From Natrialba chahannaoensis JCM 10990 (GTDB lineage Archaea; Halobacteriota; Halobacteria; Halobacteriales; Natrialbaceae), in the NCBI RefSeq assembly GCF_000337135.1, contig NZ_AOIN01000096.1:16213-80212 (forward strand): DNA of 64,000 nucleotides, given 5' to 3'. Every line of letters starts with the position of its first letter. Position 1 is the stretch's first letter. Below, piece by piece: positions 32,757 to 34,263 of this stretch. The notes under the pieces were generated by a model. It did not search any database. It saw only the letters and a program-made list of their open reading frames with translations, and was not told where the DNA came from. The position numbers were made by a program, and so were the translations under genes.

Positions 32757-34263
32757 GTGTCCCTGAGAGTCTCTCGCCTGCTGGCGGGCGAAGGCTCGAC
32801 GCCGCCGGGCCTGCCGAACTTTGACTCGACAACGGTGTTCGTCCGCGCGGCGGCGAGTGCGCTTCGCGGTGAGGAGTTTCCCGCACTGGGGATGTTTCCC
32901 TCGTGGCTGCTCCCCGTCGCAGCCCGGCTCAATTCACTGCCGCGGCGGGCTTGAACCGGGATCTACACCACCGGCAGTGCGAACGAGGGCGTCTCGCCGG
33001 ACGAACTGGGCAACGTCGACGTCGAGCGGTTCCGCCAGTGGGTCGTCGACCAGTATCCGGACCGCGGCTATCCCGCTGTCATCGTCGGCTCGAGCAACGG
33101 CGCGGCGGTCCATCTCGCCACGCTGCTATAGTAGCCACTGCAAGTCACTGCACACCTGATCGCACGACAGCTGTGCGACCAGTGTGTAAATAGTTGCAGT
33201 TGTTACTATAGGTGTCCCCTGGCTCCCACAGACGTTCCTCGTCCCCGTCTCGCGCTCACTCCCACCCGACGCAATCCACGCGGATCTCGAGTGGGGTGCC
33301 GAGCACGCCGAGCCGTTCCTCGCGGCCAACCCGGTCGTCACCCTCCACCAGATGCACGACCCGAACCAGGACCGGCTGATGGTCCAGAAACTGGCTTACT
33401 TCCGGACGAAATCCTGCCGTCTCGGCGACGCCTACGAGGAGTTCATCGAGACGGTGCTAGCGTCCGACGGGACGATCATCATACTCGAGTGCGAGTACGA
33501 CTGGCCGGCGGTCCGGATCGACGACCGGCACACGTACCAGGTCGGCGGCCACGGCGGGCTCGAACCCGAGGACTACTACGAGGGCGACGAGGCGATTGCG
33601 GAGTTTCTCGAACAGCAGGGGGCGAACCGCGACCGGTGGTATACGCCCGAACCAGACGAACGCGTTCCAGAAGCCGAGTGGGGCTTCGAGCCAGCACTTG
33701 GCGAAGATATCGACCGCCTTGCGGACGAGAATGGCTACGACGTTCGACGGTTACAATTCGACGAACCACACGAGCTGAGCCCCTTCGTCGCCGATCGGTA
33801 TCGCGAGCGCTACGCCGAACTCGGCCGACCGGTCGACCGGCTGTTCGTCCAGTCGTTCGCGCTGGTCGAGCCGTGGTGGACCCTCCGAACCGGCTCGGTG
33901 CCCTACTGGACGCCGTTCAACACCGCCCCCGACGCCGCTCAGCTAGAGTCGTATCTGGACGGCGTCGAGCCGTACGACGAAATTTGGACGACCCTGTTCG
34001 CCCATGGCGTCGACTCCGCCGGCCTGGGGTTGATCGATCGCTGGCGGTCCGTCCTCAGCCGGGCACGCGACCAGTACGGCTTCGTCGGCGTCGACGAGGC
34101 CGAGTTCCCGTACGACATCGAAACGCACGTCCGGTATCACGAGGACCTGCCGGAGACGATTCGCGCCCGCTACGCCCACCCCGCGCCGATGGCGTTCGAT
34201 CGGTTCGATTCGATTGCCGACGACGCTGGATCGGTGTACGGGGTCGACTGGAACCAGCAGTGA
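32757..34263 (+). pseudogene. Broken alpha/beta-hydrolase-like gene (nonsense codon plus transposon insertion)
   Basis: Reading from a GTG at 32757 gives a protein-like chain (RLLAGEGSTPPGLPNFDSTT) interrupted by an in-frame TGA at 32952-32954. It continues in the same frame with TGIYTTGSANEGVSPDE and a nucleophile-elbow-like GSSNGAA. It is then cut by an 82-base insertion at 33129-33210. Removing that insertion joins CTG CTA to GGT GTC (LLGVPWLPQ) in frame, giving 475 codons including the stop. Downstream sequence (from MHDPNQDRLM at 33352 to the TGA at 34261) is intact and could be translated alone as a 303-aa fragment. Family not identified; the GxSxG motif suggests a hydrolase. It converges on pstB with 15 bases between. 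Confidence 0.8.
33127..33210. mobile_element. Palindromic miniature inverted-repeat element (MITE-like)
   Basis: About 80 bp flanked by TA on each side (33127-33128 and 33209-33210), the target duplication of IS630/Tc1-mariner-type elements. The ends are inverted repeats: TATAGTAGCCACTGCAAG on the left against TATAGTAACAACTGCAAC as the reverse complement of the right. Pairing continues inward to TCGCAC/GTGCGA around a 7-base centre, so nearly the whole element folds back on itself. It has no coding capacity and would need a transposase in trans. It inserts a stop codon immediately (CTA TAG) and shifts the host frame. Confidence 0.82.

Follow-up and report, generated by a model that had tools for sequence, protein, structure and literature searches.

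Results

A palindromic element interrupts a conserved haloarchaeal gene

The foldback sequence of 80 bp that we describe here, located in a 64,000-nucleotide stretch of the Natrialba chahannaoensis JCM 10990 genome (hereafter, the window), is very probably a non-autonomous cut-and-paste MITE of the IS630/Tc1-mariner type that is moved in trans by an IS630-family transposase. It breaks a conserved gene, and the preliminary description of the locus, a MITE disrupting a gene, was thus confirmed as an observation and is supported as an interpretation. The features of the locus, in window coordinates, are as follows:

32757–34263, plus strand: disrupted gene for a conserved haloarchaeal protein of unknown function; GTG start, interrupted by the MITE; 474 aa in N. 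magadii
32952–32954, plus strand: in-frame nonsense codon TGA (CGA in genome G003)
33127–33128, no strand: left TA copy of the target dinucleotide, from the sequence, the TA flanks of the family and the L016 pair
33129–33208, plus strand: MITE (foldback element) of 80 bp, gene-less, from sequence, folding and genome searches
33129–33154, plus strand: left terminal inverted repeat, which with the TA reads TATAGTAGCCACTGCAAGTCACTGCACA
33160–33178, no strand: central hairpin TCGCACGACAGCTGTGCGA, whose stem covaries between subfamilies
33183–33208, minus strand: right terminal inverted repeat, which with the TA reads TATAGTAACAACTGCAACTATTTACACA in the focal copy
33209–33210, no strand: right TA copy of the target dinucleotide, from the sequence, the TA flanks of the family and the L016 pair

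With both TAs the element measures 84 bp, which leaves no room for a gene, and terminal inverted repeats are present both in the focal element and in its family. The terminal arms read TATAGTAGCCACTGCAAG and TATAGTAACAACTGCAAC, as had been reported. The whole strand folds end to end into a single imperfect hairpin of -22.7 kcal/mol, whereas shuffled focal sequences fold at -13.6 ± 2.4 kcal/mol (z = -3.8; 0 of 200 as good). Folding agrees with the near-complete 80-bp palindrome between two TAs (33127–33210) of the preliminary description, whose sequence and coordinates are correct. The same description considers full palindromes of such a size to be less common than MITEs with an internal body, which is doubtful, since Correia, RUP and ERIC are stem-loop MITEs of approximately 100–200 bp (PMC2229807).

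Excision in silico of the element plus one TA restored CTG CTA GGT GTC, and the joined flanks form an open frame of 475 codons from the GTG at 32757, a count that takes in the terminal stop and the in-frame TGA (32952); both results reproduce what had been proposed. The insert of 82 bp shifts the frame by +1 and opens with TAG TAG in the frame of the gene, so that translation would stop immediately. Congeners, N. magadii among them, have no interruption at exactly this base: the frame is open in G001, G003 and G004, at 93% identity of the amino acids, as it is in five further genera (62–68%). In G003 and G004, on which the site alignment rests (the G001 row was left out because of its wrong orientation), the DNA is continuous across the focal site, reading GCGCTGCT, then T or C, then directly GGCGT, with no insert. 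The gene is thus a pseudogene with two independent lesions, the MITE insertion and the nonsense codon. Its protein has no family match in Pfam, NCBIfam or PDB; a GSSNG motif adjoins the insertion site, and its resemblance to a hydrolase nucleophile elbow is only a guess. Elsewhere in the window, an ORF at 27675–29432 contains a long low-complexity tract in which D, E and K repeats are abundant.

Distribution and size classes of the family

Searches with the 80-bp element gave 45 matches in its own genome (G000), two of them identical. Of 61 related haloarchaeal genomes, 52 also had matches (E up to 10), the strong ones being mainly in the same haloarchaeal family. When the ends were searched with up to 2 mismatches, 92 + 88 matches were found in G000 and 105 + 97 in G003, as compared to 1–3 per strand for the reversed pattern that served as control; the family load in a Natrialba genome is roughly a hundred copies. 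Copies are dispersed, and 79 of 83 distinct family copies have a TA on either side, so that the further TA-flanked copies expected from the preliminary description do exist, both in the own genome and in relatives. Matches were also present in 50 plasmid records, with copies on plasmids of Natrinema, Haloarcula, Natronorubrum, Halomontanus and others, as well as on NC_013924.1 of N. magadii ATCC 43099; phage records gave no match.

In 2 Mb of the G003 chromosome, 28 of the 31 paired copies are of 84 bp, and the remaining three measure 83, 246 and 560 bp. Copies of 124 bp are common in G000; their additional 40 bp form a GC-rich palindromic core. The long forms (L091 3124–3369; L092 3798–4357; 124-bp copies such as L082 2185–2308) have their ends in common and carry extra palindromic, GC-rich core units (CGCGGTTCGGAGCGAG...GAGAACCGCG); since the additions are palindromic units in the core, the hairpin appears to grow from its center. 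In the draft G000 assembly, several long forms (L060, L062, L063, L067, L074, L076, L079 and L081) have one N set between repeated sequences, and are likely to be assembly joins at hairpins. The G000 size classes of 188–214 and 376 bp, where N is flanked by repeats, look like scaffold artefacts at hairpins and were rejected.

The element has no match in Rfam, no description of this MITE family was found in the literature (ISfinder not covered), and the string TATAGTAG was not found there together with haloarchaea. The family is apparently new and without a name so far, but of a known kind, that of the RUP-, Correia- and ERIC-like MITEs.

Insertion occurs at TA, preferentially within CTAG

The flanking TAs are preceded by C and followed by G in 54 of the 83 copies, versus 2.2% of all TAs (binomial p ~ 1e-67). 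This preference is conspicuous because Haloquadratum, also a haloarchaeon, strongly avoids CTAG (PMC3119063), and because just 1.9% of TAs in 2 Mb of the G003 chromosome lie in CTAG. Duplication of the TA is directly visible at locus L016 of the own genome, where the empty site in G003 reads GTCTGC(TA)GGAAG and the filled site GTCTGC(TATA..TATA)GGAAG. A second precise empty site, L010, carries CA as the dinucleotide. At the focal site the relatives have TT or TC, so that the proposed TA duplication is inferred for the focal copy, L016 being where it is seen directly; TT/TC and CTA all give leucine codons, and the ancestor of the focal strain is therefore taken to have had CTA. The empty sites anticipated in relatives were encountered at both places, as the uninterrupted gene in G003 and G004 and as L016 in G003.

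At L085 two MITE copies have one TA in common, as expected if one had entered the end of the other, and at L084 two copies lie 6 bases apart with an N in between. By a rough measure, only 3 of the 31 copies in 2 Mb of G003 span a joined frame of at least 900 nt; most copies thus lie outside long joined frames, and disruption of a gene, as at the focal site, is the less usual case.

The hairpin is conserved

Standard pairs make up 96.1% of pair cells over 70 different copies of 84 bp, and this value falls to 19–48% when the structure is slid out of register. Changes on both sides of a pair affect 41 pair cells versus 12.2 in shuffles, with 0 of 500 shuffles reaching 41, although these covariation counts are inflated by the relatedness of the sequences. 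Part of the covariation lies in pair 15-70, where C-G becomes A-T: the two ends change together, which is what their recognition by one transposase would require. This requirement does not explain the changes in the central stem (38-48, 31-55). The mismatches of the palindrome are also conserved across the family, indicating that the arms are not simply copies of each other. One reading, which we regard as rather improbable, is that the foldback is itself the working part of the element: the hairpin is kept by compensatory change and lengthened centrally (from 84 to 124, 246 and 560 bp), and abundance in the absence of IS630 hints at an undescribed helper or a hairpin-dependent step.

An IS630 element as candidate helper

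The candidate, 1059 bp long when its TAs are counted, contains two ORFs and an A7G slippery site and is a member of the IS630 family (NF033545, E = 1.8e-39). Its protein carries HTH domains at the N terminus and a DDE motif that is complete as read by eye (CIDQ, VLDGAPY, SPELNPVEE). Of 125 genomes of the haloarchaeal family, 78 contain ORF1, and a copy with two otherwise open ORFs exists in the own genome (G000 C93). The ends of the element, approximately TATAGTARNCRTTAGAA...CTCA, agree in most cases with those of the MITE at 17–22 of 28 positions on the better side, against a background of unrelated TATAG 28-mers that peak at 10–12 of 28 and center on 11. The closest IS630 ends have their first 8–11 bases in common with the MITE (best 22/28); positions 12, 14 and 15 differ consistently (CTGCAA in the MITE, TTAGAA in IS630), and a MITE-like end variant, CGCTGGAA, occurs in IS630 copy L167. 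Of 28 IS630 copies, 23 are inserted in CTAG. A preference of IS630 for TA within 5'-CTAG-3' has been reported (Tenzen and Ohtsubo 1991, cited in PMC2170065), and TA is duplicated by ISY100, which is of the same family (PMC2170065).

In N. magadii, one IS630 copy (L114 1396–2536) lies within an 84-bp MITE at the internal CTAG AACTAGTT, and the copies at L140 and probably L105 occupy the same sequence context; the MITE thus offers landing sites for the IS. In L105 (1460–2518) and similar copies, haloarchaeal IS630 ORFs in different frames join at AAAAAAAG, which suggests programmed frameshifting in archaea.

No autonomous element with the exact ends of the MITE was found in 2 Mb of the G003 chromosome, the G000 stretches or the listed G014 ends, where clean end pairs are all MITE-sized (83–560 bp). 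Longer apparent end pairs were rejected as nested or neighboring elements, and so was the single-ORF IS630 of G019 (379 aa), whose repeated unit does not start with TATAG. A degenerate pattern combining the IS630 end with a MITE-like core retrieved no type from GTDB genomes other than the known L167, and neither viral contigs (one pattern) nor phage records yielded an autonomous element. A full-length IS with the same 15–18-bp ends, which the preliminary description had suggested looking for, was thus not found; an IS630 with related ends, TA flanks and the CTAG target exists.

Mechanism and alternatives

Identical TA flanks, the same CTAG target and MITE-like ends in IS630 make mobilization in trans by IS630 the best mechanism. 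A transposase of the IS630 family, produced from another locus, would bind both ends of the MITE (~28 bp each), excise the 80-bp DNA and insert it at TA in a CTAG-like site, with duplication of that TA; the focal insertion would have broken a conserved but dispensable gene by entering one of its leucine codons. Both the cut-and-paste chemistry and the source of the transposase, this IS630 element or a close and partly lost relative, are inferred. That a gene-less element is moved by an unlinked transposase, as originally proposed, is supported by the family, the empty sites and an IS630 with related ends and the same target. Against mobilization by this IS630 stand the negative search for an autonomous element with the exact MITE ends, the MITE-rich genomes G010, G014 and G031 with no IS630 match, a MITE load that is not significantly higher in genomes with this IS630 (p = 0.17), and the TT or TC, instead of TA, of the relatives at the focal site.

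It is unlikely, in our judgement, that the same MITE depends on another, unseen transposase with exact TATAGTAGCCACTGCAA ends, lost or residing in unsampled genomes, such that the likeness to IS630 would reflect common descent rather than cross-mobilization. The consistent end differences at positions 12, 14 and 15 fit such an origin, as do the missing intermediate autonomous element and the genomes G010, G014 and G031, which are rich in MITEs and have no IS630 match. Agreement between IS630 and MITE in target, TA flanks and the first 8–11 bases argues against it, as do end variants of the L167 type and the identical copy pair, which implies recent activity in a genome that has an IS630 with two otherwise open ORFs.

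Two further explanations do not involve this kind of transposition, and we give both almost no weight. A structured RNA or regulatory hairpin, selected at fixed places and not mobile, would account for a foldback kept with covariation in 96% of pair cells, but the element has no counterpart in Rfam, is precisely absent from orthologous sites in relatives, and occurs as dispersed, TA-flanked and CTAG-targeted copies. A REP- or SMR-like palindrome moved by a single-strand mechanism of the IS605/TnpA-REP type would agree with the short palindrome and high copy number, and Haloquadratum SMRs, whose mobilizer is unknown, are of similar size (PMC3119063); however, IS605-type elements have neither terminal inverted repeats nor target duplication (PMC3119063), whereas our element displays both, its terminal repeats being related to those of IS630.

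The family is a source of pseudogenes and of CTAG landing sites for IS630, is probably a cause of scaffold gaps in draft assemblies, and offers a convenient archaeal system for testing how elements whose ends diverge are mobilized by IS630 transposases. Almost none of the listed plasmid matches coincides with a listed feature (the gene table being incomplete), and the publication on the N. magadii genome, which describes it as minimally affected by IS elements, makes no mention of MITEs (PMC3403918); the family thus appears to be unannotated. The element is of an ordinary, widespread kind, an IS630-type MITE, and the family is new as far as the literature shows.

Comparison with known systems

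The 1059-bp IS630 element resembles the MITE in its TA flanks, CTAG target and TATAGTAR ends, and differs from it in carrying transposase genes, in its inner end (TTAGAA, not CTGCAA) and in lacking a foldback. Haloquadratum walsbyi MITEs and SMRs are likewise multicopy, transposase-free mobile repeats of a haloarchaeon (PMC3119063). The MITEs have transposon-like ends, and SMR-A elements (~110 bp), which enter IS605-type elements, are reported to lack target duplication; the main text of that paper makes no mention of IS630 (PMC3119063). Correia/NEMIS of Neisseria and ERIC of enterobacteria are also stem-loop MITEs with TA termini, of 100–155 bp (PMC2229807). Correia occurs in short and long forms that differ by an internal insert (PMC2229807), as compared to the 84-, 124-, 246- and 560-bp forms here; unlike Correia, the longer forms here gain palindromic core units, and the likeness to Correia and ERIC is one of form. 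RUP of Streptococcus pneumoniae (107 bp, 108 copies) is, like our element, a gene-less stem-loop with a TA target and IS630-like ends (PMC2229807). The host here belongs to another domain of life, agreement between the ends and those of the IS is only partial, insertion is into CTAG, and no sequence relation is claimed; RUP, in turn, has been proposed to be mobilized by IS630-Spn1 (PMC2229807).
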